Below, one piece after another: positions 22,223 to 64,000 of a DNA stretch of 64,000 nt. Origin of the DNA: Bryopsis sp. KO-2023 (taxonomy: Eukaryota > Chlorophyta > Ulvophyceae > Bryopsidales > Bryopsidaceae); NCBI GenBank assembly GCA_030272585.1, contig BSYQ01000004.1, forward strand, positions 248,001 through 312,000, written 5' to 3'. A program made the translations under genes and the position numbers. Positions within the stretch are counted from its first letter, which is position 1. Each line of letters starts with the position of its first letter. The notes beneath the pieces are model-generated. The model was not told the DNA's origin and searched no databases. It saw only the letters and a list, made by a program, of their open reading frames with translations.

Positions 22223-23565
22223 AATTAACCGGTCTGTCTCATCGCTTTGACAGAGAGAGGGAAATCGAATGTAACAGTTCGTTTTTTTTTTGTTTTTTTT
22301 TCGAACTCCCAGCGAACGAACTCCCAGCGAACCACAAGCTGTAAGTTCCATTCGATTTCCCTTTTTACATAAGGTAACCCCTTTTTCGTTTTTTTTTTTT
22401 TTTCGAACTCCCAGCGAACCAGAAGTCGGACTGGCGCGACTTGAGAAAAAACTTGGGTTTTTTTTTTTTTTTTCTAACTCCGAGCGAATCAGATCTGGGC
22501 TAGGGCACCCTCGTTTTTTTCCAAGTCGCGGAAGTCGGACTGGCGCGACTTGGAAAAAAACGTGGTTTTTTTTTGTTTTTTTTCGAAACCAAGTCTGGGC
22601 CAGGGCGTCGCGCGCAGCGCCCTCGTTTTTTCCAAGTCGCGCCAGTCGCGCAGCGCCCTTTCCCAAGGCGCTCGTTCGTTGTTTTTTTTTTTCTAACTCC
22701 CAGCGAACCAGATCTGCGCCCAGCGACCTCACCCATCCCTTGTTTTTTTTTTTTCGAACTTCAGAGCGAACCAGATCTGGGCGAGGGCGCAGCGCGCAGC
22801 GACCTCGTTTTTTCCAAGTCGCATCAGTCAGGCTGCGCTGCGCGCAGCGCCCTTTCCCAAGGCGCAGCGCGCAGCTCCCTGGCACATCACACTTTTTAAA
22901 AAGTCGATCTTTTTTTTTATTCGAACTTCCAACGAACCAGACCTGGGGAAGGCACCGCGCGCAGCGCACAGCACTTTCGCCCATCACACCTCTTAATTCG
23001 ACAGGTCGCTGCGCGCTGCGCAGCTCCCTCGCCCATCACACCTGTCAATTTGACAGGTCGCTGCGCAGCGCGCAGCTCCCTCGCCCATCACCCCTGTCAC
23101 TTTGACAGGTCGCTGCGCGCTGCGCAGCTCCCTGGCCCCTCACACTTTGAAAGCGGTCGCTGCGCTGCGCGCAGCTCCCTCCCCATCACTTTTCTTACTT
23201 TGATAGGTCGCTGCGCTGCCCCCAGCGACCTCGCCCATCACCTTTTTAAAAGAGGGAGCTGCGCAGCGCGCAGCTCTCTCGCCCTTTCCTTTTCGGCTTT
23301 GCTTCGCGCAGCGCCCCCCCTTCCTCGTCGTCCCCCAGTTCGCTGCGCTTCGCGCAGCTCCCTCGCCCATTCAGTTGCGATTCAGCTTCGCGCCGGTCCG
23401 CCATGCGAGCAGCGTCGACCGACATGGCGCCTCGAAAATCAGACATGCGAGCGCGGAGCGTGACCGGCGACGCAGGGACATTTGGCCTTCGGGCTAGTAC
23501 CCTGCAAGCGGAGAGAGGGACATTTCGTCCTCTTAAGGAAAATCTTCATTACATTACGATTTCCC
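22223..23565 (-). mobile_element. Array unit 1, non-autonomous (type a, 1,343 bp)
   Basis: First unit of the array, at the border with host sequence. Left end: stem-loop CTGTC/GACAG and arm GGGAAATCGAATGTAA. Inside this is a tandem AACTCCCAGCGAACG motif, then an internal copy of the opposite arm near 22350, then blocks beginning with T-runs and TCGAACTCC. The right half is the GC-rich stem-loop minisatellite and the conserved block GCCATGCGAGC...GGCGACGCAGGG (about 23390-23480) before the right arm. No protein-coding gene. It matches unit 14 at constant offset with few substitutions. Confidence 0.8.
22975..23290. repeat. GC-rich stem-loop minisatellite (example in unit 1)
   Basis: Irregular units of about 50-60 bp: TCGCTGCGCAGCGCGCAG, CTCCCTCGCCCATCAC, then a stem CCTGTC, a five-base loop and GACAGG. 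The palindromic core alternates between GCGCAGCGCGCAGC and GCGCGCTGCGCAGC. Later units degrade to CTTTTTAAAAGAGCGAG-type spacers. The same repeat fills 23830-24330, 25850-26330, 35530-35690, 36230-36600, 47410-48040, 48800-49300, 59210-59700, 62450-62760 and 63305-63790. Confidence 0.85.
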
Positions 23566-24613
23566 AATTAACCGGTCTGTCTCATGGCTTTGACAGAGAG
23601 AGGGAAATCGAACGTAACAGTTGTTCGTTTTTTTTTTTGTTTTTTTTTCGAACTCCCAGCGAACGAACTCCCAGCGAACCACAAGCTGTAAGTTACATTC
23701 GATTCCCCTTTTTACATTAGGTAACCCCTTTTTCGTTTTTTTTTTTTTTTTCGAACTCCCAGCGAACCAGACCTTGGGGAGGGCGCCGCGCGCAGCGCGC
23801 AACACCCTCGCCCATCACACTTTTCTATTCGACAGGTCGCTGCGCGCTGCGCAGCTCCCTCCCCCTTCACACTTTCGAAGTTGAGAGGTCGCTGCGCAGC
23901 GCGCAGCTCCCTCGCCCCTCACACCTGTCGATTTCACAGGTCGCTGCGCAGCGCGCAGCTCCCTGGCCCCTCACACTTTGAAAGCGATCGCTGCGCTGCG
24001 CGCAGCTCCCTCCCCATCACTTTTTTTAATTTGATAGGTCGCTGCGCTGCCCCCAGCGACCTCGCCCATCACCTTTTTAAAAGGAGCGAGCTGCGCAGCG
24101 ACCACTCACCCATCACTTTGCCCCCAGCGACCTCGCCCCTCACACTTTGCCCCCAGCGACCTCGTCCATCACGTTTTGAAAGGAGCGAGCTGCGCAGCGA
24201 CCACTCACCCATCACTTTGCCCCCAGCGACCTCGCCCCTCACACTTTGCCCCCAGCGACCTCGCCCATCACCTTTTTAAAAGAGCGAGCTGCGCAGCGCG
24301 CAGCTCCCTCGCCCTTTCCTTTTCGACTTGCCTTTCTTTCCCTTTACTTTTCGCTTCGCCCAGCGCCCTGGAAACCACCCAAGTCCAGAGAGTCGGACCT
24401 GCGCTCTGCGCAGTTTCGCTGCAGCAGCGCGCCGGTCCGCCATGCGAGCGGCGTCGACCGCCATGGCGCCTCGAAAATCAGACATGCGAGCGCGGAGCGT
24501 GACCGGCGACGCAGGGACATTTTGCCTGTGGGCTAGTACCCTGCAACCCACCAAGCGGGTGGAGGGACATTTTGTTGATCCAAGGAAAATCTCATTAAAA
24601 AATTCGATTTCCC
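23566..24613 (-). mobile_element. Array unit 2, non-autonomous (type b, 1,048 bp)
   Basis: Stem-loop is CTGTC/GACAG with loop TCATGGCTTT. It has the doubled AACTCCCAGCGAACG motif and then the minisatellite, which includes a locally duplicated stretch of about 75 bp (GGAGCGAGCTGCGCAGCGAC at 24084 and 24181). The conserved right-end block is at 24430-24520. No coding capacity. Confidence 0.8.
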
Positions 24614-25597
24614 AATTAACCGGTCCGTCTTTTTAGCGGCGACGGAGAGAGGAAAATCGAACGCCAACCAAACGGTCGTCTTTCGTCGTTTTTCTTTCGT
24701 TTTCGTACAATCGTACGAACTCGTGGGCTGCAATCACCGAAAGTGCGTCGTACTTCGCGCAGCGCCCTTTCCCAAGGCGTTTTTTCGTTTGTTTTTTTTT
24801 TTTTTTCCGAACTCTCAGCCCCTCTTTCCTTTTCGACATGCCTGGCGATCACCGAAAGCGCGTCGCACTTTGTCGCGTGCGAAACGAGTGAGAAACGAGC
24901 GAGAAAACCCAGTTTTTCTTTTTTCACAGAAACTGGCGTAACTCCCTCGTTTCTCACCCGTTTTGAGCGCGACAAAGTGCTAAGTGCTCGAAAAAATGTC
25001 CTCCATACTTCTGTCCGGTCGTTTTTTAAGTCGAAATATCTTGGGAGTGGTTCCGACGTGCATTTAAAATGCATGCATCAGGTGAGTCCTCGGAATCACT
25101 CTCCGGATACTTCGATCGAAAAAACAGCTGGACAGAAGTATGGGCGACATTTTTTCGAGCACTCAGCACTTTGTCGCGCTCAAAACGGGTGAGAAACGAG
25201 GGAGTTACGCCAGTTTCTGTGAAAATAGAGAAACTGGGTTTTCTCCCTCGTTTCTCACTCGTTTTCAGCGCGACAAAGTGCTGAGTGCTCGGTTCAGCCT
25301 CTTCTTCGACGTGGTGAAGTGCACGCAGCGCCTTCCCCCCACGTTCTCCGCCAGTTTTTTTATTTTTTTCTTTCCTTTCGCCCTGGAAAACTCGCAAAGT
25401 CGTGGGAGTCGGACCTGCGCTCCGCGCATGTCCGCCATGCGAGCGGCGTCGACCGACATGGCGCCTCGAAAATCAGACATGCGGCCTCGGAGCGTGACCG
25501 GCGACGCAGGGACATTTCGATCGGGGGCCAGAGCCTCGACAAACTCCTCGCGATCGGGATCCAATAGAGAAAAATCTTCGTTACACTCCGATTTTCC
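24614..25597 (-). mobile_element. Array unit 3, non-autonomous (type c, 984 bp, second end class)
   Basis: Stem-loop is CCGTC/GACGG. The arms are GGAAAATCGAACG on the left and CGATTTTCC on the right, both one transition away from the other units in matching positions. The body is a large imperfect palindrome in place of most of the minisatellite. Unit 7 is the same unit at constant offset (12,234 bp) with no length change. Confidence 0.8.
24860..25290. repeat. Imperfect palindrome of about 430 bp inside unit 3
   Basis: The left arm runs from CACTTTGTCGCG through AACTGGCGTAACTCCCTCG to CATACTTCTGTCC. The right arm reads the reverse complement from GGACAGAAGTATG back to CGACAAAGTG. The centre near 25060-25078 contains TGCATTTAAAATGCA. 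Apparent open frames of about 150 codons on both strands here mirror each other and come from the palindrome. Confidence 0.8.
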
Positions 25598-26626
25598 AAT
25601 TAACCGGTCTGTCTCATCGCTTTGACAGAGAGAGGGAAATCGAATGTAACAGTCTTTCGTTTTTTTTTGTTTTTTTTCGAACTCCCAGCGAACGAACTCC
25701 CAGCGAACCACAAGCTGTAAGTTAGATTCGATTTCCCTTTTTACATTAGGTAACCCCTTTTTTCGTTTTTTTTTTTTTTTTCGAACTCCCAGCGAACCAG
25801 ACCTGGGCGAGGGCGCCGCGCGCAGCGCGCAGCGCCCTCGCCCATCACACTTTTCTATTCGACAGGTCGCTGCGCGCTGCGCAGCTCCCTCCCCCTTCAC
25901 ACTTTCAAAGTTACATTCGATTTCACAGGTCGCTGCGCAGCGCGCAGCTCCCTCGCCCCTCACACCTGTTCAGTTGACAGGTCGCTGCGCGCTGCGCAGC
26001 TCCCTCGCCCATCACCCCTGTCACTTTGACAGGTCGCTGCGCGCTGCGCAGCTCCCTCGCTCATCCCACCTGTCAATTTGACAGGTCGCTGCGCAGCGCG
26101 CAGCTCCCTCGCCCATCACCCCTGTCACTTTGACAGGTCGCTGCGCAGCGCGCAGCTCCCTGGCCCCTCACACTTTGAAAGCGGTCGCTGCGCTGCGCGC
26201 AGCTCCCTGACCATCACTTTTTTTAAAATTAATAGGTCGCTGGGCTGCCCCCAGCGACCTCGCCCATCACCTTTTTAAAAGAGCGAGCTGCGCAGCGCGC
26301 AGCTCCCTCGCCCTTTCCTTTTCGACTTTGCTTCGCCTTTGCTGCGCTTCGCGCCTCCCCCCCTCGTTCTCCGCCAGTTCGCTGCGCTTCGCGCACCGCC
26401 CTGGAAACCACCCAAGTCGCGCGAGTCGGACCTGCGCCCCGCGCAGTTTCGCTGCAGCTGCGCGCCGGTCCGCCATGCGAGCGGCGTCGCCCGACATGGC
26501 GCCTCGAAAATCAGACATGCGAGCGCGGAGCGTGACCGGCGACGCAGGGAAAATCGCCCTCAGGGCTAGTACCCCGCGGGGACAAAACTGATGATCCTAG
26601 GAAAATCTCATTACATTCGATTTCCC
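25598..26626 (-). mobile_element. Array unit 4, non-autonomous (type d, 1,029 bp)
   Basis: Stem-loop CTGTC/GACAG and arms of the common class. It has the doubled AACTCCCAGCGAACG motif, then the longest clean run of the stem-loop minisatellite (25850-26330), with loops AATTT, ACTTT and CAGTT. The conserved right-end block is at 26465-26550. No coding capacity. Confidence 0.8.
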
Positions 26627-26674
26627 AATTAACCGGTCTGTCTCATTGCTTTGACAAAGAGAGGGAAATCGAAT

Positions 26675-27922
26675 GTAAAGAAAACCGTCGTCTGACACAC
26701 GAAGTTGTGACACGAATGAGCACGTGAAAATAACACGGGAAGGACCAAACTTAAAACGGATTACAGCGAAATAACCAGCCTTCGCAACATCTATGCATAA
26801 TCTGAACTTCCACTCACATCACAATTATCATTATTTTTATTTCCCATCCATATATCCGAACCAAACGTTATTCTTTCCTTATGTTGTTGTTTTTGTTTTT
26901 TTTTCCTTCTTTTTTTTCAATTCCTAAATCCAAACCGAACGTTATTCTTTCCTTATTTTTATTTTCAAGTTTTTAAAGTTTTTCTCCGATTCCTACTCCC
27001 AAACCGAACATTATTATGTTCTTTGTTTTCTCTAATCCCAATATCTAAGCCCTAAATTTTTTTTCTTTTATCCTCATGATTTTTTTATTTATGATCCCTA
27101 AATCCGGTGTAATTTTTTTTTTTTTTTTTTTTTTTTTTCCTCGACCTCATAACAGTGCATATCCGTTTCCCTCCTAAAGATACCTCGTAAGATCCGCATA
27201 GAAACTTCAACTTTTTTTTTTACCGTCTAAAAATCCTCCGTTCTCTCTTTCTCTCTTGCATCAATTTTTCCGTCTTTTTTTTCAACAATGAAAGCAAAAC
27301 TTCCACTCGAGCGAAGCTTAATCTCAATAGAATCGAGAGAGTGCACATCACCATAGCAATCAGCAAAGGCTATAGAGAGGAGCCGTACCCAACGGATGCG
27401 GGGAAACATCCAATAATCCAAACGGTCGGGGCAAACCGTGACTCGTGTGGGGGGCGACACACGTAATGCGCGGGGGAACGCAACAAAAAACGGGTTGCTG
27501 ATTGCTTATAGCTCAGAGAACTCCCAAGAAACTTAAAGAGAATAGCATCATCCGAGAGGGTAGAACCGACATGAAAGCAAACGAACTATGCGGAGGTATC
27601 GAAATCTACAAAAAGAAAACCCATCGGATCGAGGATACTGCAAATAACGAAGAAAAAAGGAAGAAAACAAAACGTGTGATACATAGAATCGGCACAAAAA
27701 AACGGCACAAGGGAGAATCTTCGTTGGGTGACTGTCTATTGGATCAATCCTACGTGGAAAACTCAGAAACAACATCGAAGACACACAAATTTAAAACAAA
27801 ACATCATAAAACATGCTCACAATCAAAGAGGAACATATAAAAGAAAAATATGATCAAAAACAGAAAAAAGAACACTCGAACCAAAGGAAAACAATATGGT
27901 CCCCACAAACACATGAAAAAAA
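26675..27922. other. AT-rich 3' region of autonomous element, copy 1
   Basis: T-rich and A-rich stretches, including a 26-T tract at 27113-27138 and repeated AAACCGAACGTTATT-like segments near 26870-27010. Open frames at 27227-27460 (minus) and 27502-27840 (plus, Lys-rich) show no recognisable domain. The first is altered by the single-base difference in copy 2. I do not call a gene here. Confidence 0.5.
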
Positions 27923-30900
27923 CTACTGAATATATCGAAGCACTCCCTCAATGCCCTCAGCGTCATACAAGGTCCTCGTCTGCTCCGCAAGACCCTCCAA
28001 CCTCGCAAACTCCGCCAACCGCGGACCAAGCTTCTTCAGCTTGGCAAGGGATCGGATCCGACCGCGAGTGATGGGCGGATCGAAGGCGAGACCCTCGTAG
28101 GTGAAGGATCGGCTGACGGCCACGAAAGTAATGCCTGCCGCAAACTCCTTCGTCCCAAGGTCCACCAACACCCTGTCGAGTCCCTTGCCTTGGGACTTGT
28201 GGATGGAGATGGCCCAAGCCGGCATGAGAGGAAGCATCTTCCTCTCTCCAGAAGCCCTGGTCGCAGATGTCCGGACGTCGCGAGTGATAGGGACAATAGG
28301 AACGACCCCCTCGACCCCCTCCAAGAAGCTCGGCCCCCTGTAGTCGTCGAACCGAACCAAGACAGCATCCGGCAATGCAGGGGGAGTCGTGGACGTGTAC
28401 ACGATGTCATGAACGAAACCCATGGCGCCGTTGATGAGGCCGGCCTCTGTCCACGGGTTGGCTCGCAGCATCACCCTCGCTCCCTTGCATAAGCGCAAGG
28501 TAGATGGGAGATTCGTCGCGTCCTCCACGTCAAGACCCCTGGGCACTCGCAAATCCTCCGCCCTAATCATCGCCGTGGGTTGATCCAACGCCACGAGCCG
28601 ATCGTTGTTATGGCTCTCGGCTTGGGCGTTGGTGGCGCATAGGTACAAGGCATCCGAGAAAGCCTGTCTGTCGTCCACTGAAAGGGTACGGAGGTTGCGA
28701 GCCATCAGGGCGTCGATGTCGGAATCCGTGGGACATCCTCGTCGAAGCCTCATGAGAATGTCCCGGAAGGCCACCTGGTCTTGGCCCGCCTGTCGCATGA
28801 TCGCAGTGAGACGAACCACCACCCTGAACTGACGATACGCAGCAAAGCCGCGCAAGCGATCCGCCTTGGGCCTCTGCCCGCGATCGAACATCTCGGCATC
28901 GCTGACGGGAGGGAGCTGTCCGAAATCACCCTCAATGACAATCGACAAGCCCCCAAACAACTGATCCGCGTGCTCCGGAAACGCCTGTCTACCCCGGGAG
29001 TCGATCGATGCAAACGTCGATGCCCCGATCATCGATTTCTCATCGATGATGAGATATCGCACGCCCCTCAATCTCTCCTGAAGAAGGCTCAAGGCGTTGC
29101 CCTTGAGGTCCTTGCACCTCGAGCCCACGGGCAACATCAATAGAGAATGGAGCGTGCAACCGCCGACGTTGAAGGCGGCACAACCTGTCGGAGCGGCAAC
29201 CACGACCGAACCCTCCCCATGCTCTCTCTCGATCGCGGCAACGACGGCATGAATCAGGGCACTCTTGCCCGTGCCGGCGGTCCCCTCGACGATCATGCGC
29301 AAGGGAGGAGGGTCGTCGGAACGAGCATGCTCCACGATGATGTCATACGCGAGGCGTTGACTGTCAACGAGCTGATCACGATCGAGGTGGTCACGATCTC
29401 TGGGCAAAGGGCCGTCCCGTCTCACGTCCTGGATGAAGGTCCGCATGGTCGGGACGTCGTACTGGGCCGCGCTCGCGTGCCAATCATGATCGGAGGCCTC
29501 CATCATGGGTCGGGCAAACTGTGGATGGGCAGCCAAAGCCCGCATCCAATCATCCTGCTCGTCCTCGGGGAACTGTCGATAGTCGTCGTCGCTCCCCTCG
29601 GAGCCATCCTCCTCCTCATCATCATCCCCCACCTCGGGAGCGATGGAAACCTCTCTGAACAAATCGATCGCCCTGTGCATGGGCTGCTCCTCCAAGAACG
29701 CATCGAATGCCTCGACCCAAGTCATCTCACCGCCACCAAGCAAATCCCGATCCACGTCTCTCCACTCCTTGTAGCGGATAAGGTATTGCTGGCAAAAGTC
29801 GGGAAAGCGCTCGTCATCACGCGGCACTGGCCGGCAAGGCGGAAAGATCCTGATGATCTTGGGCTTCATCTTGCGCTTGGGTGCCGCATTCCTCGGAAGG
29901 TCGTACCATCGAAAGAAGTCCTCCAAGCACTCCTTGATGTCGTCCGGACGGTTTTTGTACTCGTCCATCCACGAACGTCGAAGGAAACCACCCTCTTCTG
30001 TGGTGATCTCTCTCGAATCGTCAAGCACTATGACACCGAAAGTCCTAGAGGCCATCGTGAGCTTGGCCGAGGCAAGCTTGTGGAAGGCCTCCATCGTGCA
30101 TACGTCATGCTCCTTGATGGTGCGGTTGAGCATCTTGACGACGGCCGAGATGGAGTTGGCCTCCTCAGCGGTGCGACACGCGTCGTCGAGGATCTCCGAA
30201 AACACCGCCATCAAGCCGCCGCTCTCCACCTCGGCCTTGCACGTGTAGCCGCACAGGTATCTCAAGAGGGCCGTCAACGACAAGATAGGTTGTATGTCGA
30301 TGTTGGCCCTGAAGCCCTGCAGCATCGGTCGCGCCTGGTACTGGTTGAAGCGCTGCTGCTTTCCGGGCCTCCTCGCGAGCTCGAGCCTGTACTTTTGCCT
30401 CGGATCCTCCACGATCTCCGCATGCGCCCGCACCTCCCTCGGGAACCTGAACCTGCACCTGCCCAAGTCCCGGTCCCTCTTGGACTTGAAGCAGCTGTTG
30501 GTGCACACGTGGGGTCCCTGAACCCTCAACAGCTCCTCCAAGTCCCTTGCACGCTCCTCGTCGCTCGTGCCGATCGACGTGTACGTCCTCGTGGACGGGT
30601 GAGGCGTGGAGGGAGCGCTGCGGAAGTCCTCGTCCATGTCCAAGGTGATGCCGACTGTCTCTGTGAAGTACTCGATGACCTCTGCTCTCGTGTCGGCGCT
30701 CATCTCCTCGTGGGCGCTCCGCATCAAGTTGGGCGCATCCGGTAGCCACAAGAACCCGTGCATGTGGGGCGCCCCTCGCCACTGGTACTCGATCTTCGCC
30801 CAAAACTCGTCCGCGCCGAAGTAAGGCACCATCACCTTCTTGAGGAACGACTCGGATCGCTCCAAGAAGTAGGCATCGATGAGATCGGCGTTGTCCACCA

Positions 30901-50880: not shown

Positions 50881-53800
50881 CTACTGAATATATCGAAGCA
50901 CTCCCTCAATGCCCTCAGCGTCATACAAGGTCCTCGTCTGCTCCGCAAGACCCTCCAACCTCGCAAACTCCGCCAACCGCGGACCAAGCTTCTTCAGCTT
51001 GGCAAGGGATCGGATCCGACCGCGAGTGATGGGCGGATCGAAGGCGAGACCCTCGTAGGTGAAGGATCGGCTGACGGCCACGAAAGTAATGCCTGCCGCA
51101 AACTCCTTCGTCCCAAGGTCCACCAACACCCTGTCGAGTCCCTTGCCTTGGGACTTGTGGATGGAGATGGCCCAAGCCGGCATGAGAGGAAGCATCTTCC
51201 TCTCTCCAGAAGCCCTGGTCGCAGATGTCCGGACGTCGCGAGTGATAGGGACAATAGGAACGACCCCCTCGACCCCCTCCAAGAAGCTCGGCCCCCTGTA
51301 GTCGTCGAACCGAACCAAGACAGCATCCGGCAATGCAGGGGGAGTCGTGGACGTGTACACGATGTCATGAACGAAACCCATGGCGCCGTTGATGAGGCCG
51401 GCCTCTGTCCACGGGTTGGCTCGCAGCATCACCCTCGCTCCCTTGCATAAGCGCAAGGTAGATGGGAGATTCGTCGCGTCCTCCACGTCAAGACCCCTGG
51501 GCACTCGCAAATCCTCCGCCCTAATCATCGCCGTGGGTTGATCCAACGCCACGAGCCGATCGTTGTTATGGCTCTCGGCTTGGGCGTTGGTGGCGCATAG
51601 GTACAAGGCATCCGAGAAAGCCTGTCTGTCGTCCACTGAAAGGGTACGGAGGTTGCGAGCCATCAGGGCGTCGATGTCGGAATCCGTGGGACATCCTCGT
51701 CGAAGCCTCATGAGAATGTCCCGGAAGGCCACCTGGTCTTGGCCCGCCTGTCGCATGATCGCAGTGAGACGAACCACCACCCTGAACTGACGATACGCAG
51801 CAAAGCCGCGCAAGCGATCCGCCTTGGGCCTCTGCCCGCGATCGAACATCTCGGCATCGCTGACGGGAGGGAGCTGTCCGAAATCACCCTCAATGACAAT
51901 CGACAAGCCCCCAAACAACTGATCCGCGTGCTCCGGAAACGCCTGTCTACCCCGGGAGTCGATCGATGCAAACGTCGATGCCCCGATCATCGATTTCTCA
52001 TCGATGATGAGATATCGCACGCCCCTCAATCTCTCCTGAAGAAGGCTCAAGGCGTTGCCCTTGAGGTCCTTGCACCTCGAGCCCACGGGCAACATCAATA
52101 GAGAATGGAGCGTGCAACCGCCGACGTTGAAGGCGGCACAACCTGTCGGAGCGGCAACCACGACCGAACCCTCCCCATGCTCTCTCTCGATCGCGGCAAC
52201 GACGGCATGAATCAGGGCACTCTTGCCCGTGCCGGCGGTCCCCTCGACGATCATGCGCAAGGGAGGAGGGTCGTCGGAACGAGCATGCTCCACGATGATG
52301 TCATACGCGAGGCGTTGACTGTCAACGAGCTGATCACGATCGAGGTGGTCACGATCTCTGGGCAAAGGGCCGTCCCGTCTCACGTCCTGGATGAAGGTCC
52401 GCATGGTCGGGACGTCGTACTGGGCCGCGCTCGCGTGCCAATCATGATCGGAGGCCTCCATCATGGGTCGGGCAAACTGTGGATGGGCAGCCAAAGCCCG
52501 CATCCAATCATCCTGCTCGTCCTCGGGGAACTGTCGATAGTCGTCGTCGCTCCCCTCGGAGCCATCCTCCTCCTCATCATCATCCCCCACCTCGGGAGCG
52601 ATGGAAACCTCTCTGAACAAATCGATCGCCCTGTGCATGGGCTGCTCCTCCAAGAACGCATCGAATGCCTCGACCCAAGTCATCTCACCGCCACCAAGCA
52701 AATCCCGATCCACGTCTCTCCACTCCTTGTAGCGGATAAGGTATTGCTGGCAAAAGTCGGGAAAGCGCTCGTCATCACGCGGCACTGGCCGGCAAGGCGG
52801 AAAGATCCTGATGATCTTGGGCTTCATCTTGCGCTTGGGTGCCGCATTCCTCGGAAGGTCGTACCATCGAAAGAAGTCCTCCAAGCACTCCTTGATGTCG
52901 TCCGGACGGTTTTTGTACTCGTCCATCCACGAACGTCGAAGGAAACCACCCTCTTCTGTGGTGATCTCTCTCGAATCGTCAAGCACTATGACACCGAAAG
53001 TCCTAGAGGCCATCGTGAGCTTGGCCGAGGCAAGCTTGTGGAAGGCCTCCATCGTGCATACGTCATGCTCCTTGATGGTGCGGTTGAGCATCTTGACGAC
53101 GGCCGAGATGGAGTTGGCCTCCTCAGCGGTGCGACACGCGTCGTCGAGGATCTCCGAAAACACCGCCATCAAGCCGCCGCTCTCCACCTCGGCCTTGCAC
53201 GTGTAGCCGCACAGGTATCTCAAGAGGGCCGTCAACGACAAGATAGGTTGTATGTCGATGTTGGCCCTGAAGCCCTGCAGCATCGGTCGCGCCTGGTACT
53301 GGTTGAAGCGCTGCTGCTTTCCGGGCCTCCTCGCGAGCTCGAGCCTGTACTTTTGCCTCGGATCCTCCACGATCTCCGCATGCGCCCGCACCTCCCTCGG
53401 GAACCTGAACCTGCACCTGCCCAAGTCCCGGTCCCTCTTGGACTTGAAGCAGCTGTTGGTGCACACGTGGGGTCCCTGAACCCTCAACAGCTCCTCCAAG
53501 TCCCTTGCACGCTCCTCGTCGCTCGTGCCGATCGACGTGTACGTCCTCGTGGACGGGTGAGGCGTGGAGGGAGCGCTGCGGAAGTCCTCGTCCATGTCCA
53601 AGGTGATGCCGACTGTCTCTGTGAAGTACTCGATGACCTCTGCTCTCGTGTCGGCGCTCATCTCCTCGTGGGCGCTCCGCATCAAGTTGGGCGCATCCGG
53701 TAGCCACAAGAACCCGTGCATGTGGGGCGCCCCTCGCCACTGGTACTCGATCTTCGCCCAAAACTCGTCCGCGCCGAAGTAAGGCACCATCACCTTCTTG

Positions 53801-56301
53801 AGGAACGACTCGGATCGCTCCAAGAAGTAGGCATCGATGAGATCGGCGTTGTCCACCATCGCTCGCCTCTTCTTCGCCTTCCTCTGGGCCTCCGTGGCAC
53901 AATCTGAGTAGTCGAGTTGGAGGAGAGTCTCGATCTGTGGCCAAAACATCTCGGCGGAGCTCAAGGTGAAGAAGAGCGAGGGCATGTAGCCCTGGCTACC
54001 CTCGACCGGGTGCGTGAGCTGCCGAAACATCTCCTCCAGCTCGCCACGTCTATCGGACCAAAATTGCTTCGTTCCTCGTATCCTTGAACCAAAGGCAAGA
54101 ATCTTCCTCATAAGGCTCGAATCACCCTCATCTACGAGGTCCTTCAAGTCCTTCACCGTCATCTTGTTGATGTCTAGGTTCCCCTTGAGGAACACCCGTG
54201 CCGTGCAAAACGCGGCTTTGCGATCTGCGAGATTGACGACCAAGAACTTGAAGCGTGGATGCCGCGCGAAACGACGATCCGGCCATCGCATCAGATGAAG
54301 AGCGTACTCTCGCATGCCATTGACGTCGGGAAAGCCGGCCGTCGTGTAGTCGGCAGCGCCACAAGGGAAAAGGGTGGGGAACGCCATCGAAAAGAGTCCT
54401 CGGGTCATGAACTCCTTGATCGGCTCCCTCTCTCGCACCGGAAAGGGAGCCACGTTGTTCCCCTCGGCACGATCGATCGCCTCTGTGACAGATGCTCGGA
54501 TCTTGTCGACCTCTCGAACTCCACGGATTGTCGTGGGTGCATGAGAGTGCATCGACACATCGCCGTCCGCCTCGTCGTCCGAATCGTGGGCGCGGAACCC
54601 GCCCTCCTCCTCAGCCTGGGCGGCCTGCCGCTCGGTGAACTCTCGCAATCCCTCGGGGCTCCCGTGCTCCGGAAGACGAGCGATAACGTCCTCGTCAATC
54701 TCAATCCCAGCATACCAGGGGTTGTTCTTCTGCAACCAACGCAAGGCACGGAGAACAACCCCTCGTCGCACGATGTGATCCTGATGAGTCCGATCAACCC
54801 CGTGTTGTCGGACCACCACCCAAGGAAGGTCTCTCGGGTCCACCGGCAGGCGCTGAAGGGCCTCGATCGTCTCCGAGTGGTCCGCCATAAAACCAATGAA
54901 GTGACCGCTCAACCGATGCATCCCGCTCTTGTGGATCCTCGCAATGTACATGCAAGGGTGAATACGGGCGATCAACATCTCCTCCATCTGGGTGAGGCCG
55001 GTGAGCTCGGGAGGAACGGGATCCGGCCAGAGCCCGTTCTCTTCGCTGTACGCTCGTCGATAGCGCGGATTCCTCTTGCACCTCGCACACGTGGAATCGC
55101 TGAAGTCGGCACCCGGCCCCGTCTCTCCACAACTCTGGCAAACGTTGCCGTGCCAGGTAACGGTCTGCTCCAAGTGACGCTCCCAATCGCGAATCAGCTC
55201 GTCGACGCTCGTGCGTTTGAGATTTTGCTTGTGGATCTTTTTTCTGGTCGCCCATTCCTCTCGTTGCTTTTTCCTCTTTCGCTCGTTTTCTTTCCTCGTG
55301 TTCTCGTCGGACGCTTTCTTTTCGCTCGTGTCCGTTCTCTTTCGTTCCTCGCTCGCGTGTGTTTCACGCAATGCTTTTTTCTTTTCTTCGGACAATTTCG
55401 CTTCCCTCTCGCGCTTCAGCAAAGCACGTTTCTCCAACCTTTTTTCCTTCTCTGTTTCGGGCTTGCTCGCAATGTTTTCTTTCTCAGCATCCCTCATCTC
55501 TTTTGCTTTCTTCGCATCGCTTCGTTGCTTCCTCTTTCTTTCCCTCGCAAGGCGTTTTTTTCTTTCTTCTTTCGTTTCCGTTTCGGTTCCGGTTTCATTT
55601 TTGAGTTGGGGAGTTCTGTTTCCCACGATCGGCACGTTAATATTCGCAAGTAATGAGGCGGGGGTGATCGCTTGGAGCTCGTTTCGCTCGTACACCCTGT
55701 CGTAGTGGTTACCTTTCGTGTTACATAATCTAACAAACACGTTATCCATGGCGCTGGTGGTAATCAAGTGAGTGGGGAACAAAGGATTAAATTTGAATAC
55801 AGGGTAGTCACGTTGGTATAATTGTATTTCAAAAGGGGTTTGGAGGAGGGTCGCGGCCGCAAAAATAGTCCACGTGCTCGCCCACGTATCGTTGGACCGC
55901 ATGTTATTTATCTTTATTTTTATCTCATCGATGGTGCACCCCTCAAAAGCGGCAAAAGTCACGGGGTGCGTCGCCGCCAGGTCGCATACCAAGGTTCGTA
56001 GGGTCCCCGCACTCGTTTCGTCCCCGCTTATTTCTTTGGATATGGCGTTAAAAAAACACGCCCCGTTTGCTGAACTGTGATCGACAAAAAATTCTGCCCC
56101 TAGGGCCACGTTCATTTGCTCGTATAACGAAAAATTTTGTCTCCCGTACGGGGAACTCGTCACTGGAGTGATCACGAAAGGATCACGAGAGATCACTCGC
56201 CTGTTTGGGATACCCAACCCCACGCACACTTGATTCCTCCACATCCATCGAGCTTGCACGTCGGACCTTGTGAAGCTCCTCGTCTCACCCACTGACGTCA
56301 T
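50881..56301 (-). CDS. RepHel protein with OTU protease-like domain, copy 3
   Basis: Same 1,806-residue product as copies 1 and 2, with every catalytic motif intact. Confidence 0.93.
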   Translation of the reverse strand: MTSVGETRSFTRSDVQARWMWRNQVCVGLGIPNRRVISRDPFVITPVTSSPYGRQNFSLYEQMNVALGAEFFVDHSSANGACFFNAISKEISGDETSAGTLRTLVCDLAATHPVTFAAFEGCTIDEIKIKINNMRSNDTWASTWTIFAAATLLQTPFEIQLYQRDYPVFKFNPLFPTHLITTSAMDNVFVRLCNTKGNHYDRVYERNELQAITPASLLANINVPIVGNRTPQLKNETGTETETKEERKKRLARERKRKQRSDAKKAKEMRDAEKENIASKPETEKEKRLEKRALLKREREAKLSEEKKKALRETHASEERKRTDTSEKKASDENTRKENERKRKKQREEWATRKKIHKQNLKRTSVDELIRDWERHLEQTVTWHGNVCQSCGETGPGADFSDSTCARCKRNPRYRRAYSEENGLWPDPVPPELTGLTQMEEMLIARIHPCMYIARIHKSGMHRLSGHFIGFMADHSETIEALQRLPVDPRDLPWVVVRQHGVDRTHQDHIVRRGVVLRALRWLQKNNPWYAGIEIDEDVIARLPEHGSPEGLREFTERQAAQAEEEGGFRAHDSDDEADGDVSMHSHAPTTIRGVREVDKIRASVTEAIDRAEGNNVAPFPVREREPIKEFMTRGLFSMAFPTLFPCGAADYTTAGFPDVNGMREYALHLMRWPDRRFARHPRFKFLVVNLADRKAAFCTARVFLKGNLDINKMTVKDLKDLVDEGDSSLMRKILAFGSRIRGTKQFWSDRRGELEEMFRQLTHPVEGSQGYMPSLFFTLSSAEMFWPQIETLLQLDYSDCATEAQRKAKKRRAMVDNADLIDAYFLERSESFLKKVMVPYFGADEFWAKIEYQWRGAPHMHGFLWLPDAPNLMRSAHEEMSADTRAEVIEYFTETVGITLDMDEDFRSAPSTPHPSTRTYTSIGTSDEERARDLEELLRVQGPHVCTNSCFKSKRDRDLGRCRFRFPREVRAHAEIVEDPRQKYRLELARRPGKQQRFNQYQARPMLQGFRANIDIQPILSLTALLRYLCGYTCKAEVESGGLMAVFSEILDDACRTAEEANSISAVVKMLNRTIKEHDVCTMEAFHKLASAKLTMASRTFGVIVLDDSREITTEEGGFLRRSWMDEYKNRPDDIKECLEDFFRWYDLPRNAAPKRKMKPKIIRIFPPCRPVPRDDERFPDFCQQYLIRYKEWRDVDRDLLGGGEMTWVEAFDAFLEEQPMHRAIDLFREVSIAPEVGDDDEEEDGSEGSDDDYRQFPEDEQDDWMRALAAHPQFARPMMEASDHDWHASAAQYDVPTMRTFIQDVRRDGPLPRDRDHLDRDQLVDSQRLAYDIIVEHARSDDPPPLRMIVEGTAGTGKSALIHAVVAAIEREHGEGSVVVAAPTGCAAFNVGGCTLHSLLMLPVGSRCKDLKGNALSLLQERLRGVRYLIIDEKSMIGASTFASIDSRGRQAFPEHADQLFGGLSIVIEGDFGQLPPVSDAEMFDRGQRPKADRLRGFAAYRQFRVVVRLTAIMRQAGQDQVAFRDILMRLRRGCPTDSDIDALMARNLRTLSVDDRQAFSDALYLCATNAQAESHNNDRLVALDQPTAMIRAEDLRVPRGLDVEDATNLPSTLRLCKGARVMLRANPWTEAGLINGAMGFVHDIVYTSTTPPALPDAVLVRFDDYRGPSFLEGVEGVVPIVPITRDVRTSATRASGERKMLPLMPAWAISIHKSQGKGLDRVLVDLGTKEFAAGITFVAVSRSFTYEGLAFDPPITRGRIRSLAKLKKLGPRLAEFARLEGLAEQTRTLYDAEGIEGVLRYIQ

Positions 56302-57508
56302 CTATACAAATATTCGAAAAAACAAACGAATTCATTGAAATTCCGTGAATAGAGAGAAGATTCAAGGGGTTTCTTGGGCTGATTTTTCATGCGAAACACC
56401 CACGATAGTCAATGCCTCAAAAAATCATTTATTTGCACTCCATTAGGCTTATACAATAGCTTTCTTTTGTTTTATACAATATTTGGGTGGCCGAATCCCT
56501 CCCGACGTCCGGAAGTCGTCAAAGGACGATCGACCTAAAGTTTTTCCTTTAAAACGTGACAAAATAGTATGTAGTGGCTTCCCCTCGACTCCACGTTTCC
56601 AACGCGCTTTGTTTCGTCGGAAACGACACGGTATAAGAGAAGTTATGAGGAAAAACATAAAGAATCTCAACAGGAGGGAGATCTTTTCGGCGACGAAGTT
56701 GGTTTCTCCCAAAAAAGAACGCGAACAAGGTGGAACCAAGCCAGAAAAAGGAAAACAAAGAAGAATAGGGAGAGGTTTCCCTAAAACCTTTTCTGTCGAC
56801 CCCTACATGTTTGAATTTCCAGGAAATAAGCCTTCAGGAGGTGTGGGAGTCGAACCCACTTCACCCTCCTTCTTCTCTCACCTTGTTCGCGTTCTCAACA
56901 CGCCTGCGTCGTCGCGTACGTCGTCGCTCGTCGCCTTTTTTTCCTTCCTCGACTTTCCTTGCTCGATCTTCGTGGATCGTCGATGGTTACGCGAGAATCG
57001 GAAGTCGTCAATGACAGGGACGGGATGAGAGTCACATCACTCTTCCAGGTACGTCATCCTTGAGGACTTCGATTTCGCTTCACGGTTTTGGTGGGGTGGA
57101 ATGGTGGGGATCCGCGAGAACACTTTCTCGAGATATCGACATGGACTCGCTGCGTGTTGACGATACGGCCGACGGCGGCAGAGACGACCGGAAACACGAG
57201 AAACCAGAGCTTACTCGTGTGAGGAGGGTATTCGCCAGGAGACGAAAGAAACGCAGGTGAGTGAACGTGAAATAATGCTCACAGCGGGTTCCAGGTTGGG
57301 TTCGACTCCCAAGTGAGACCACAAACGTAAAGAGGGAAGGAACTCTTGCAGTAAACGTAGTGCTAGCTTCCTCTGAACCATTTGCAGGCGTGAGGGGCAG
57401 CCCATCCACAACTCTGGCTTCTGTCAAACTTCCTGGTATCCATCATTGACAGCTTTTTACGTTGAATTCAGTCGAAGTAAAAACACCGTCAGCAAACAGA
57501 TCGGTTGG

Positions 57509-58328
57509 GAAGGGCCTGTTTTTTTTTTGTTTTTTTTTTGGAAAGGATAGGTCATTTGCTGTGGTTCCTGGGAAGTGGAAAGGGGGAAGGGAAGAGTTGT
57601 TTTTTTTCGATTGAATGGAATGGAAGGGTATTTTTTTTGCTAAGCAAAGGGAAAGAGAAGGGCCAGGTGTTCTTTTCAATGGGAAAGGGAAGGGCCTGTT
57701 TTTTTTTTGTTTTTTTTTTGGAAAGGATAGGTCGTTTGCTGTGGTTCCTGGGAAGTGAAAAGGGGGAAGGGAAGAGTTGTTTTTTTTCGATTGAATGGAA
57801 TGGAAGGGTATTTTTTTTGAGACGGAGCAAAGGGAAAGAGAAGGGCCAGGTGTTCTTTTCAATGGGAAAGGGAAGGGCCTGGTTTTTTGTTGCTTGTTTC
57901 AAGGGGAAGGGAATCGCCCAGTTTTTTTTCTATGTTTTCAAGTAAGGGAAGGGAGCAGAGTAGAGCAAGGGAAGGGAGCAAAGGCTTCCTTTTCCCTGTT
58001 TCAAGGGGAGGGATAGGCCAGTTTTTATTTTTTTGAAGGGGAAAGGGAGGGGGGGGGGTCTCTTTTTTATAAGGGAGAAGGGAAGGACCAGTTTTATTTT
58101 ATATTTGTTGCAGTGTTCTTTCAAGGGAAGGGAAAAGGAGGGGAGAGGAGAAGAGAGGCTTGTTTTCCTTGTTTGAAGAAAAGGAAAAAGGAAGTGCCAG
58201 TTTTTTTCAAGGGGGATGGGAAGGGAGAGAGTGGTTTTTTTTGGGTTGCTTCAAGGGGAGGGGAACGGCCCAGTTGTTTTTTTCTATTTCTGTAAGGGAA
58301 GGGAAGCAAGGCTCAGTTGTTTTTTCGA
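57509..58328. repeat. Purine-rich repeat block, copy 3
   Basis: Direct repeats starting at 57509 and 57689, same layout as in the other autonomous copies. Confidence 0.85.
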
Positions 58329-58945
58329 TCACGATCACCGAAAGCGCGTCGCACTGCGCGCAGCGCCTTTTCCCAAGGCGCTCTTTTTCGCTGTTTTTTC
58401 CTGTTTTTTCCTTTTTTTCCAACTCCGAGCGAGCCAGACCTGGGCGAGGGCGCCGCGCGCAGCGCACAGCACCCTCGCCCATCACACCTTTTAATTCAAC
58501 AGGTCGCTGCGCGCTGCGCAGCTCCCTCGCCCATCACTTTTTTTAATTTGATAGGTCGCTGCGCTGCCCCCAGCGACCTCGCCCATCACCTTTTAAAAAG
58601 AGCGAGCTGCGCAGCGCGCAGCTCCCTCGCCCTTTCCTTTTCGATGGTGCCGCGCCGCGCTTCGCGCAGCGCCTCCCCCCCTCGTTCTCCGCCAGTTCGC
58701 TGCGCTTCGCGCAGCGCCCTGGAAACCACCCAAGTCGCGCGAGTCGGACCTGCGCTCCGCGCAGTTTCGCTGCAGCTGCGCGCCGGTCCGCCATGCGAGC
58801 AGCGTCGACCGACATGGCGCCTCGAAAATCAGACATGCGAGCGCGGAGCGTGACCGGCTACGCAGGGAAAATCGCCCTCAGGGCTAGTACCCTGCGGGGA
58901 CAAAATCGTTGATCCAAGGAAAATCTTCATTACATTCGATTTCCC

Positions 58946-60003
58946 AATTAACCGGTCTGTCTCATCGCTTTGACAGAGAGAGGGAAATCGAATGTAACAG
59001 TTTTTCGTTTTTTTTTTTTTTTTTTTTCGAACTCCCAGCGAACGAACTCCCAGCGAACGAACTCTCAACGAACCACAAGCTGTAAGTTACATTCGATTTC
59101 CCTTTTTAGATTAGGTAACCCCTTTTTCGTTTTTTTTTTTTTTTTTCGAACTCCCAGCGAACCAGACTTCGGGAAGGGCGCCGCGCGCAGCGCGCAGCAC
59201 CCTCGCCCATCACACTTTCTAACTCCACAGGTCGCTGCGCGCTGCGCAGCTCGCTCACCCATCACACTTCGCCCCCAACGACCTCGCCCATCACTTTTAA
59301 AGGAGCGAGCTGCGCAGCGCCCTCACCATCACACTTTTTAAGTCGTCGCTGCAGTGCGCGCAGCTCCCTCACCCTTCCAGTTTCGAAGCTCCTTGTCCCA
59401 TCAGTTTACTGAAGTGATCGCAGCGCTGCGCGCACCTCCCTCACCCATCACTTTTTTTAATTTGACAGGTCGCTGCGCTGCCCCCAGCGACCTCGCCCAT
59501 CACCTTCTTAAAGGAGCGAGCTGCGCAGCGACCTATCACCCACCCATCACTTTTTTTAAGGGGTCGCTGCGCTGCGCGCAGCTCCCTCCCCATCACTTTT
59601 CTTAAATTGATAGGTCGCTGCGCTGCCCCCAGCGACCTCGCCCATCACCTTTTAAAAAGAGCGAGCTGCGCAGCGCGCAGCGACCTCGCCCTTTCCTTTT
59701 CGATGGTGCCGCGCCGCGCTTCGCGCAGCGCCTCCCCCCCTCGTTCTCCGCCAGTTCGCTGCGCTTCGCGCAGCGCCCTGGAAACCACCCAAGTCGCGCG
59801 AGTCGGACCTGCGCCCCGCGCAGTTTCGCTGCAGCTGCGCGCCGGTCCGCCATGCGAGCGGCGTCGCCCGACATGGCGCCTCGAAAATCAGACATGCGAG
59901 CGCGGAGCGTGACCGGCGACGCAGGGAAAATCGCCCTCAGGGCTAGTACCCCGTGGGGACAAAACTGATGATCCTAGGAAAATCTCATTACATTCGATTT
60001 CCC
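58946..60003 (-). mobile_element. Array unit 12, non-autonomous (type h, 1,058 bp)
   Basis: Stem-loop CTGTC/GACAG, three leader motifs (the last diverged to AACTCTCAACGAACC), a long T-run, then a degenerate minisatellite. Its right end resembles that of unit 4. One extra A at 60004 separates it from unit 13, the only junction with an added base. It matches unit 15 at constant offset (4,096 bp). Confidence 0.8.
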
Positions 60004-60004: not shown

Positions 60005-61698
60005 AATTAACCGGTCCGTCTCATCGCTTCGACAGAGAGAGGAAAATCGAATGTCACTGTTCGTTCGTTTGTTCTCTCAAGCGATGGTTGCCACACACAA
60101 GTCCAACAGGCACTCTGCGTGTAGGCGTCGTACAGCGCACGGCACGCCCCAGAGTCCATTAAACCCCCAGGTTATCTTTTAGCTTTTCAGGGGTGACTCT
60201 GCTTTTGATAGAAAACCTATAGCAAATTCAAATCAAGAATAGAACTTCTTCCTTTCCCACAGAATTTTCTGTGAAAATACAAACTCACAACAAACCAACT
60301 GGAAGTTTCACAGGGGAAACCCACTTCTCACTTTATAAACCAGCCAAACACCTTTCTCTTTCACTTGGCACCAATCACACTTTTTAGATCAACCTTTTCC
60401 AACTTTTTCCAGACCTGTGACTCTGGGGTCCCCTTTTTCACTCCTTTTCTGACCTGAGGCTCCCCTTTTTCGAACTGCCTCGCACACACACCTTCCTGAC
60501 GACCCCCAGGTCGCTCCTGCACAGTGTTGCACAGGTGATGCTGCGCGCTCATGTGGCGCTTCACTCTTTTCTGACGATCCAGAGCGTTCCTTGTCGAAGG
60601 CTGCGCAGTCCAGTCGCAGGGTTCCAGTACGCTCCCCACCAGCGTTCCGTTCCAGCAAACTCCTCGTCCACCTCACTGGGGAGTCACACTTTTTGTCGCC
60701 TGCAGCATCGATTGTCAAAGGTCAGCGCCGTTTTTTTTTACAGTGAACTCCACCTCCTTTTTAGCGAAAAACAGAGGTTCCTTGCTCTTTCGTCCGCCTG
60801 GAAGGGTCAAGTTCGGTTCGACTCCGATGCCAGGCTAGGATCGCACTTAGGATCGTTTTTTCGCCCTCGTTTTTTCCAAGTCGCTGCAGTCGGGGTGCGC
60901 TGCGCGCATCGCCCTTTCCCAAGGCGCAGCGCGCAGCTCCCTGGCCCATCACACTTTTTAAGTGGTTTTTTTTTACGACTAAAGCCCAGAGAAAACGAAA
61001 AAGAACGAGAAAAGCTAAAACAGGATCCCCCAGAACCTGTAAATCTAAATCTAAAACACCGACTCTGGAGAAAGGGTCGGAAAACGAACGAACCGAACAG
61101 AAAGGTTCGAAACTACTGCCTGGAAAGACCTTCAGGCGCAACTGGACTAAAAAAGGAAAAAAAAAACCCTTCTGGACCCCCCCTGGGGTAAATCCCTGCA
61201 GAATTTGTGCGAAAAATTACTTGGACTTCGAAAAACGTTCGAAAAAAGAGAGACCCCCTGCTTAAGGGTCGAGAGAAAAAGAACAGTGGTCGCCTGTCTA
61301 CCAGGGAGACGGTCGCAGGTCGACATGTTCGAAAATAGAAGCTCCAAAAAACGAAATTACCACTTGCAGTCGACCTCCAATGGTCAATGGTCAAGGGCCG
61401 GCTGTGAGAGGAAGACGTTTCGACGCAGGGGCAAGACGAAACACTTCGCGCAGCGCCTCCCCCCTCGTTCTCCGCCAGTTCGCTGCGCGAAGCGAAGAAA
61501 ATCGCAAAGTCGTGGGAGTCCGACCCGCGCTCCGCGCAGGTCCGCCATGCGAGCGGCGTCGACCGACATGGCGCCTCGAAAATCAGACATGCGCGCTCGG
61601 AGCGTGACCGGCTACGCAGGGACATTTTGCCTGTGGGCTAGTACCCTGCGGGGACAAACTGATGATCCGTGGAAAATCTCATTAACATTCGATTTCCC
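60005..61698 (-). mobile_element. Array unit 13, non-autonomous with unique cargo (type i, 1,694 bp)
   Basis: The left arm is of the second class (GGAAAATCGAATG), the stem-loop is CCGTC/GACAG with one unpaired position, and the right arm is of the common class, so this unit has mixed ends. The stretches 60060-60840 and 60965-61440 are found in no other unit and lack the minisatellite. They may be captured host sequence. Short frames there (for example CRICAKNYLDFEKRSKK on plus near 61198, FEKGEPQVRKGVKKG on minus near 60450) show no family I know. The conserved right-end block is at 61540-61620. Confidence 0.7.
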
Positions 61699-63041
61699 AA
61701 TTAACCGGTCTGTCTCATCGCTTTGACAGAGAGAGGGAAATCGAATGTAACAGTTCGTTTTTTTTTTGTTTTTTTTTCGAACTCCCAGCGAACGAACTCC
61801 CAGCGAACCACAAGCTGTAAGTTCCATTCGATTTCCCTTTTTACATAAGGTAACCCCTTTTTCGTTTTTTTTTTTTTTTCGAACTCCCAGCGAACCAGAA
61901 GTCGGACTGGCGCGACTTGGGAAAAAACTTGGGTTTTTTTTTTTTTTTTCTAACTCCGAGCGAATCAGATCTGGGCTAGGGCACCCTCGTTTTTTTCCAA
62001 GTCGCGGAAGTCGGACTGGCGCGACTTGGAAAAAAACGTGGTTTTTTTTTGTTTTTTTTCGAAACCAAGTCTGGGCCAGGGCGTCGCGCGCAGCGCCCTC
62101 GTTTTTTCCAAGTCGCGCCAGTCGCGCAGCGCCCTTTCCCAAGGCGCTCGTTCGTTGTTTTTTTTTTTCTAACTCCCAGCGAACCAGATCTGCGCCCAGC
62201 GACCTCACCCATCCCTTGTTTTTTTTTTTTCGAACTTCAGAGCGAACCAGATCTGGGCGAGGGCGCAGCGCGCAGCGACCTCGTTTTTTCCAAGTCGCAT
62301 CAGTCAGGCTGCGCTGCGCGCAGCGCCCTTTCCCAAGGCGCAGCGCGCAGCTCCCTGGCACATCACACTTTTTAAAAAGTCGATCTTTTTTTTTATTCGA
62401 ACTTCCAACGAACCAGACCTGGGGAAGGCACCGCGCGCAACGCACAGCACTTTCGCCCATCACACCTCTTAATTCGACAGGTCGCTGCGCGCTGCGCAGC
62501 TCCCTCGCCCATCACACCTGTCAATTTGACAGGTCGCTGCGCAGCGCGCAGCTCCCTCGCCCATCACCCCTGTCACTTTGACAGGTCGCTGCGCGCTGCG
62601 CAGCTCCCTGGCCCCTCACACTTTGAAAGCGGTCGCTGCGCTGCGCGCAGCTCCCTCCCCATCACTTTTCTTACTTTGATAGGTCGCTGCGCTGCCCCCA
62701 GCGACCTCGCCCATCACCTTTTTAAAAGAGGGAGCTGCGCAGCGCGCAGCTCTCTCGCCCTTTCCTTTTCGGCTTTGCTTCGCGCAGCGCCCCCCCTTCC
62801 TCGTCGTCCCCCAGTTCGCTGCGCTTCGCGCAGCTCCCTCGCCCATTCAGTTGCGATTCAGCTTCGCGCCGGTCCGCCATGCGAGCAGCGTCGACCGACA
62901 TGGCGCCTCGAAAATCAGACATGCGAGCGCGGAGCGTGACCGGCGACGCAGGGACATTTGGCCTTCGGGCTAGTACCCTGCAAGCGGAGAGAGGGACATT
63001 TCGTCCTCTTAAGTAAAATCTTCATTACATTACGATTTCCC
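61699..63041 (-). mobile_element. Array unit 14, non-autonomous (same type a as unit 1)
   Basis: Same length (1,343 bp) as unit 1 at a constant offset of 39,476 bp, with scattered substitutions (for example G at 61920 where unit 1 has A at 22444). Its right neighbour is type h, whereas unit 1 is followed by type b. Confidence 0.8.
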
Positions 63042-63958
63042 AATTAACCGGTCTGTCTCATCGCTTTGACAGAGAGAGGGAAATCGAATGTAACAGTTTT
63101 TCGTTTTTTTTTTTTTTTTTTTTCGAACTCCCAGCGAACGAACTCCCAGCGAACGAACTCTCAACGAACCACAAGCTGTAAGTTACATTCGATTTCCCTT
63201 TTTAGATTAGGTAACCCCTTTTTCGTTTTTTTTTTTTTTTTTTCGAACTCCCAGCGAACCAGACTTCGGGAAGGGCGCCGCGCGCAGCGCGCAGCACCCT
63301 CGCCCATCACACTTTCTAACTCCACAGGTCGCTGCGCGCTGCGCAGCTCGCTCACCCATCACACTTCGCCCCCAACGACCTCGCCCATCACTTTTAAAGG
63401 AGCGAGCTGCGCAGCGCCCTCACCATCACACTTTTTAAGTCGTCGCTGCAGTGCGCGCAGCTCCCTCACCCTTCCAGTTTCGAAGCTCCTTGTCCCATCA
63501 GTTTACTGAAGTGATCGCAGCGCTGCGCGCACCTCCCTCACCCATCACTTTTTTTAATTTGACAGGTCGCTGCGCTGCCCCCAGCGACCTCGCCCATCAC
63601 CTTCTTAAAGGAGCGAGCTGCGCAGCGACCTATCACCCACCCATCACTTTTTTTAAGGGGTCGCTGCGCTGCGCGCAGCTCCCTCCCCATCACTTTTCTT
63701 AAATTGATAGGTCGCTGCGCTGCCCCCAGCGACCTCGCCCATCACCTTTTAAAAAGAGCGAGCTGCGCAGCGCGCAGCGACCTCGCCCTTTCCTTTTCGA
63801 TGGTGCCGCGCCGCGCTTCGCGCAGCGCCTCCCCCCCTCGTTCTCCGCCAGTTCGCTGCGCTTCGCGCAGCGCCCTGGAAACCACCCAAGTCGCGCGAGT
63901 CGGACCTGCGCCCCGCGCAGTTTCGCTGCAGCTGCGCGCCGGTCCGCCATGCGAGCGG
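63042..63958 (-). mobile_element. Array unit 15, non-autonomous, broken (same type h as unit 12)
   Basis: Matches unit 12 up to GCCATGCGAGCGG at about 63958, then switches to unrelated sequence for the last 42 bases. The conserved right-end block and right arm are therefore missing in this window. It is either a truncated unit at the array edge, an insertion, or an assembly join. Confidence 0.7.
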
Positions 63959-64000
63959 TGATACGAACGTCCGTCGTATGACACGCGGTTCGGCCCACTC
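63959..64000. other. Sequence after the break in unit 15
   Basis: 42 bases unlike any other unit, containing a small inverted repeat TACGA...TCGTA. Too short to classify. Confidence 0.4.

Follow-up and report, generated by a model that had tools for sequence, protein, structure and literature searches.

Head-to-tail Helitron2 arrays in Bryopsis sp. KO-2023 and a probable preference for the element's own 3′ end as insertion target

How does a transposon come to lie copy against copy, all in one orientation, over tens of kilobases? The question is raised by a 64,000-nucleotide stretch of contig BSYQ01000004.1 of Bryopsis sp. KO-2023 (positions 248,001 to 312,000, here G000:C4:248001-312000 and hereafter the window), taken from an assembly of 91.09 Mb in 28 contigs, in which positions 22223 to 64000 are occupied by an array of Helitron2 transposons. 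Tandem Helitrons have been reported from bat, plants, Drosophila and fungi (PMC5148889, PMC2267711, PMC5876387), Helitron arrays in plant centromeres are cited in PMC5148889, and the literature examined does not settle whether tandems originate as multimers or through the insertion of one copy after another (sources identified by PMC number are cited from the parts of their text that were available). The Bryopsis arrays are known from genome assembly sequence alone, and the reading that we regard as probable is one of self-targeting, in which new copies insert singly at the 3′ ends of resident copies, these ends serving as preferred landing sites. The observations on which it is built are the unit boundaries, the target motif, one empty site, a near-random order of units, and near-identical copies that have different neighbours.

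A search for AATTAACCGGT, with which each unit starts, returned 15 copies in the window, all on the plus strand and the first at 22223, so that the head-to-tail arrangement in a single orientation proposed in the initial annotation was borne out. Since both the strand of the RepHel gene and the structure of the termini place the sense strand of the element on the minus strand, AATTAACC is its sense 3′ end. The array begins with four non-autonomous units (unit 1, 22223–23565, 1343 bp; unit 2, 23566–24613, 1048 bp; unit 3, 24614–25597, 984 bp; unit 4, 25598–26626, 1029 bp), followed by an autonomous unit 5 (26627–35987, 9361 bp), two non-autonomous units (unit 6, 35988–36847, 860 bp; unit 7, 36848–37831, 984 bp), an autonomous unit 8 (37832–47192, 9361 bp), two more non-autonomous units (unit 9, 47193–48317, 1125 bp; unit 10, 48318–49584, 1267 bp), an autonomous unit 11 (49585–58945, 9361 bp) and four further non-autonomous units (unit 12, 58946–60003, 1058 bp, or 1059 bp from start to start; unit 13, 60005–61698, 1694 bp; unit 14, 61699–63041, 1343 bp; unit 15, incomplete, with its first 959 bases at 63042–64000). 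The three 9361-bp units each carry an intact RepHel of 1806 amino acids, as expected of the three autonomous copies that had been claimed, and the remaining units are short. Pairwise differences among the three are 0, 1 and 1, unit 5 being identical to unit 11 and unit 8 one base off; units 3 and 7 are likewise identical, and three bases distinguish unit 1 from unit 14.

The claim that every unit ends exactly where the next begins holds for 13 of the 14 junctions within the window, the exception being that of units 12 and 13, where an additional A lies at 60004. The description of the array as uninterrupted fails at unit 15, because that unit is split by a long terminal repeat (LTR) retrotransposon that begins at 63959 and runs on for about 9.5 kb, to approximately C4:321444, with 396-bp LTRs that are 99.5% identical, what looks in the printed sequence like a 5-bp target duplication (AGCGG) and long open frames, the longest of 1372 amino acids from stop to stop. 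Similarly, the extent of 41.8 kb and 15 units is correct for the window, beyond which the array reaches C4:329,931 and a total of 22 units. The 21-bp junction has 77 exact copies in the genome and the reversed control pattern none; its recurrence is not due to chance.

The RepHel frame lies on the minus strand (27923–33343 in unit 5, 39128–44548 in unit 8 and 50881–56301 in unit 11) and contains, according to Pfam, OTU, DUF6570, Helitron_like_N (1.1e-20) and PIF1 (1e-25) domains, and its helicase part resembles PIF1 chains in the PDB and shows a weak match there to Helraiser. It has HMH at residue 860 and YLCGYTCK at residue 1029, which we take to be the HUH motif and the two-tyrosine motif of RepHel. 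No endonuclease domain is among the six Pfam families in this 1806-residue frame, the other frames of the 9.4-kb unit not having been scanned. In the sense direction the element is laid out as (T)GGGAAATCG...CGATTTCCC-TCTC-hairpin-CCGGTTAAT(T); the 5′ end is GGGAAATCG or GGAAAATCG in all of 77 units compared, and the 3′ end is GGTTAATT in 76 and GGTTAATC in one. A 5′ hairpin (35960–35987 in unit 5) encloses the 5′ asymmetric terminal inverted repeat (ATIR), with an 8-bp stem predicted by a fold program in units 5 and 3. The inner repeat copy, or 3′ ATIR (26663–26671), stands next to the 3′ hairpin region (26637–26658), which is placed by covariation over the 77 units and not by a single-sequence fold, the fold program yielding this stem for unit 3 and a different one for unit 5. 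Across the 77 units, which are related sequences and do not represent independent changes, a position in the 5′ stem is G-C in 56, A-T in 18 and other in 3, an ATIR position is G/C in 56, A/T in 18 and unmatched in 3, and a position in the 3′ hairpin is T-A in 49, T-G in 16 and C-G in 12, a pattern indicating that the putative terminal pairing is preserved across variants. What the non-autonomous units have in common with the autonomous ones is mainly the right end, over a length of up to about 500 bases. Many non-autonomous units also contain internal tandem repeats of about 52 bp in which GCGCAGCGCGCAGC-like palindromes are abundant (e.g., 22959–23284, 25820–26313 and 36228–36468).

An HUH/Y2 Rep with a PIF1-type helicase, an ATIR 0–2 bases from the 5′ end that forms a 5′ hairpin, a 3′ ATIR ahead of the 3′ hairpin, and a T-rich target without duplication are all found here, and together these RepHel domains and terminal features support assignment of the family to Helitron2. 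The same hairpins and ATIRs, with the 3′ ATIR subterminal and just upstream of the 3′ hairpin, a 5′ T, insertion after a T-rich tetranucleotide without target duplication, and a RepHel without endonuclease are described for Helitron-1_CRe and relatives in the available text of PMC3627910, whereas the target there is TTTT and not TWWT, the 3′ ATIR is 20–30 and not about 36 bases from the 3′ end, and the long mixed head-to-tail arrays have no counterpart in that text, from which the word "tandem" is absent. Helentrons and DINE-1 (PMC4067079, as far as available) also resemble the Bryopsis element in their subterminal inverted repeats, 3′ stem-loop, T-rich target, variable number of terminal T residues and OTU proteases, but Helentrons have an AP endonuclease domain and none was found in the 1806-residue frame. 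The Helitron2 half of the original Helitron2/Helentron designation is therefore retained and the Helentron half rejected on the basis of that frame. A canonical Helitron (Helitron1, with 5′ TC, 3′ CTRR and an A^T target) was likewise rejected, since the ends GGGAAATCG/GGAAAATCG and GGTTAATT/GGTTAATC differ.

Genome-wide counts of ends, which are lower bounds because exact patterns were used, gave 135 pattern-matched right ends (78 + 57) and 129 exact left ends (81 + 48). An exact left end abuts 112 of the right ends, with a gap of 0 bases in 102, 1 base in 7 and 2 bases in 3, and four more right ends abut a variant left end, so that 116 of 135 are end-on-end; conversely, four of the exact left ends are joined to variant right ends, which brings the joined left ends to 116 of 129 and the junctions to 120. 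The tabulation of what lies beyond the element's end, suggested in the initial annotation as a check, thus reveals a large end-on-end excess over ordinary flanks, of which there are 19. Clusters with many neighbour combinations occur on eight contigs (C1, C2, C3 with two, C4, C6, C7, C8 and C11), a spread that makes an assembly error less likely, and dispersed copies are present at nine further sites, at four of which a left end was not recognised within about 2 kb. A subtelomeric location as a rule was rejected, the clusters being situated from about 4% to 93% of the way along their contigs. Contig C4 itself starts with CCCTAAA repeats and ends with TTTAGGG repeats.

There are 34 Helitron_like_N matches in the genome, 21 of which cover nearly the full domain at 81–86 bits; 19 of these 21 lie between recognised cluster ends, the remaining two lie about 4 kb (C7) and 12 kb (C8) past the last recognised end, and 19 of 21 have an open frame of at least 1792 amino acids. 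Eight other matches, elsewhere in the genome, are partial. A second, dispersed Helitron family is represented by five matches of 148–152 bits (C4:3225436, C13:2377969, C15:214355, C4:2025907 and C7:442759), with frames of 1386 amino acids in four and 578 in one.

The right ends that are not followed by a left end reveal the target. All 19 are flanked by AAWWA (AAAAA in 10, AAATA in 3, AATAA in 4 and AATTA in 2), a motif that starts at 1.2% of positions in 22 kb of host flank, which gives TWWT^T as the target on the sense strand; at least two of these 19 flanks are in element-derived DNA (C11:3483698 and C3:6454787). Of the 13 left ends that are not joined, 11 have T after GGTTAAT, one has C (C6) and one has A (C2:5471680); because it varies, this base seems to be derived from the target. 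The element's 3′ end, GGTTAAT plus T, contains the motif TWWTT, and in all 68 sampled junctions (24 bases each) the motif occurs once on the sense strand and not at all on the opposite strand. Since it is present on one strand only, a uniform head-to-tail orientation is predicted, and possession of the target motif by the element's own 3′ end would explain both the exact junctions and the shared orientation. The one exception to that orientation is seen on C11 near 3388968 (L047, G000:C11:3388501-3389300), where two opposite arrays meet left-to-left with a truncated unit beside them.

A copy at C11:3482517-3483698 sits within a right end of the unit 2 type, and comparison with intact ends shows neither duplication nor loss; this insertion supplies one empty site and demonstrates integration without target duplication. 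Nested insertions are otherwise scarce, with this clear case and two unclear ones (both on C3) in all sequence read: the flank at C3:6454787 is in an autonomous-like unit that lacks approximately its first 75 bases, and the left end at C3:6395482 is preceded by a truncated autonomous-like unit, an insertion or a deletion fitting either of them. By comparison, the interiors of 74 units (three others, of 10550, 19583 and 10227 bp, having been left out) hold 816 motif sites on the same strand and 4527 on the opposite strand, overlapping matches counted. With so many interior sites hardly used, the preference for the ends goes far beyond what the motif alone would give.

The order of units bears on how arrays grow. 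It was analysed with 77 unit rows (one, of 10227 bp, overlaps the next row and lacks its right end) and 68 direct adjacencies from seven arrays (C4, C1, C2, two on C3, C6 and part of C7; C8 and C11 were left out, as was the dimer L030). Repeated neighbour pairs numbered 5 against 3.2 expected from 5000 within-array shuffles (standard deviation 1.5, P 0.18), and 4 neighbours were of the same type where 4.1 were expected. In 38 pairs of copies with at least 99.5% identity, which overlap and are not independent, the neighbours are different in 61 of the 68 comparisons that could be scored and the same in 7, with 8 edge cases; as a case in point, the three near-identical 9361-bp units of the window have six different neighbours. 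The same autonomous unit occurs on C11, where nine sampled stretches (614 to 1266 bases) match at 100% in eight and 99.6% in one, again with various neighbours. Differing neighbours and a near-random order suggest that arrays grow mostly by the insertion of single copies at 3′ ends already present, and the family is proposed to have been recently active. Junctions between two unit types that elsewhere carry an insert give 14 cases at the level of unit type, which mostly involve common types and so do not decide the matter. A plain satellite or segmental tandem repeat was rejected in view of 36 types among 77 units, the near-random order and only one local tandem duplication.

A mechanism can be envisioned in which RepHel cuts at TWWT^T on the sense strand. 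The last four bases of the element, TAAT, together with the next T would rebuild the target motif beside the 3′ hairpin, a stop site that the transposase should already recognise, and RepHel, needing to cut TAAT^T beside this hairpin in order to end replication, may do likewise at a resident copy. The incoming 5′ end would be joined to the cut resident 3′ end, insertion would recreate the site and the array would grow by single copies, autonomous or not, their orientation set by the one-strand motif; occasional segmental duplication, and perhaps some multimers, could contribute blocks. RepHel is inferred to act on resident 3′ ends by binding or nicking them, and the inserting form to be a monomer, whether single-stranded or circular. 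Helraiser is known to form circles in which the ends are joined (PMC4778049), and such circles have been suggested for FoHeli1 (PMC5148889); the junction of a monomer circle, GGTTAATTGGGAAATCG, would be identical to an array junction. On account of that identity, we tentatively extend the scheme, although we hold the extension to be doubtful: one motif, TWWT^T, may serve the transposase at both ends of the donor as well as at the target, resident 3′ ends being a site-specific platform on which RepHel recombines monomer circles and the arrays a self-perpetuating, addressable family home.

Several observations weigh against self-targeting in this simple form. TWWTT alone does not account for the preference, and a longer recognition is assumed. 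The segment that starts in the tail of unit 12 and ends in the head of unit 15 has a second, tandem copy with 99.85% identity and the extra A included, which reflects duplication and not a separate insertion; a pair of 1267 and 1331 bp is present twice on C3 (99.7% identical); and on C11, an array that like C8 falls outside the order test, like autonomous units stand side by side (the window unit type at L059 and L062, another autonomous subtype at L057), with left ends spaced 9434, 9432, 9364 and 9361 bases apart, which fits multimers or repeated use of one site. Gene conversion, moreover, could be an alternative source of the similarity between copies. The second mechanism offered in the initial annotation, read-through by rolling-circle replication followed by insertion of multimers, which would here consist of neighbouring or like units entering as one block, could accommodate the second copy of units 12–14, the C11 junctions, the C3 pair and a lone two-unit copy (C3:2211191-2213091, its inner junction about 7 bases short), and is the explanation given for tandem Helitrons in the available part of PMC5876387. 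As the main route in the sampled arrays it is nevertheless unlikely, for repeated pairs and same-type neighbours are close to their expected numbers and near-identical copies mostly differ in their neighbours, even if old blocks could have been broken by later insertions at junctions; the self-targeting half of that proposal is the one favoured by the end-on-end excess, the 19 AAWWA flanks and the motif in the element's own 3′ end.

Expansion without transposase, by unequal crossing-over or by homologous recombination of circles with resident units, would account for the tandem repeat of units 12–14, in which the extra A is found at the junction both times. We consider it improbable as a general explanation: the window's autonomous units keep their own end variants and their neighbours keep different ones, so that breakpoints would have to fall no more than a few bases from the left junction and roughly a dozen from the right one, and unequal crossing-over moves neighbours too, yet near-identical copies mostly have other neighbours. 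A safe haven, with random insertion at TWWTT and selection purging copies outside arrays, would agree with the small number of dispersed sites but appears very improbable, as it leaves unexplained why insertions go to junctions when the same arrays offer so many motif sites within units.

Related elements and arrangements are known. FoHeli of Fusarium oxysporum (PMC5148889, in part) likewise has ATIRs, hairpins, a TNAT target, an ATTTT 3′ end and joined-end evidence, but tandems are rare there, the available text describing one FoHeli4 pair accompanied by a partial copy and, in Metarhizium acridum, a tandem of three. Adjacent maize Helitrons (PMC2267711, in part) are also unlike elements joined head-to-tail and were explained by consecutive insertion; they are, however, two canonical elements with a non-canonical G/T junction, whereas here there are more than 100 junctions and the 3′ end restores the target. 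The available parts of PMC5148889, PMC4067079, PMC2267711, PMC4778049, PMC5876387, PMC3627910 and PMC8226300 mention neither long mixed arrays of Helitron2 nor a 3′ end that mimics the target, subscription literature being mostly outside this comparison. Tandem Helitrons themselves being known, what is new is the number and scale of junctions, the mixing of autonomous and non-autonomous units and the target-restoring 3′ end. Over 100 junctions, the target motif and the empty site come from a single genome, in which the hardly used interior sites act as an internal control; this combination favours consecutive insertion into a target-mimicking end and makes the origin of tandem Helitrons directly testable. 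Array orientation would then derive from the asymmetry of one short motif, and the element, if this is true, would be a nearly site-specific eukaryotic rolling-circle transposon, of interest to transposon study and use.

Over the window as a whole, Rfam at gathering thresholds and a tRNA scan gave no matches. The left flank (1787–6139) contains two serpin-like genes in opposite orientation. Split genes were noted for a serpin, an amino-acid permease and PNP_UDP_1.

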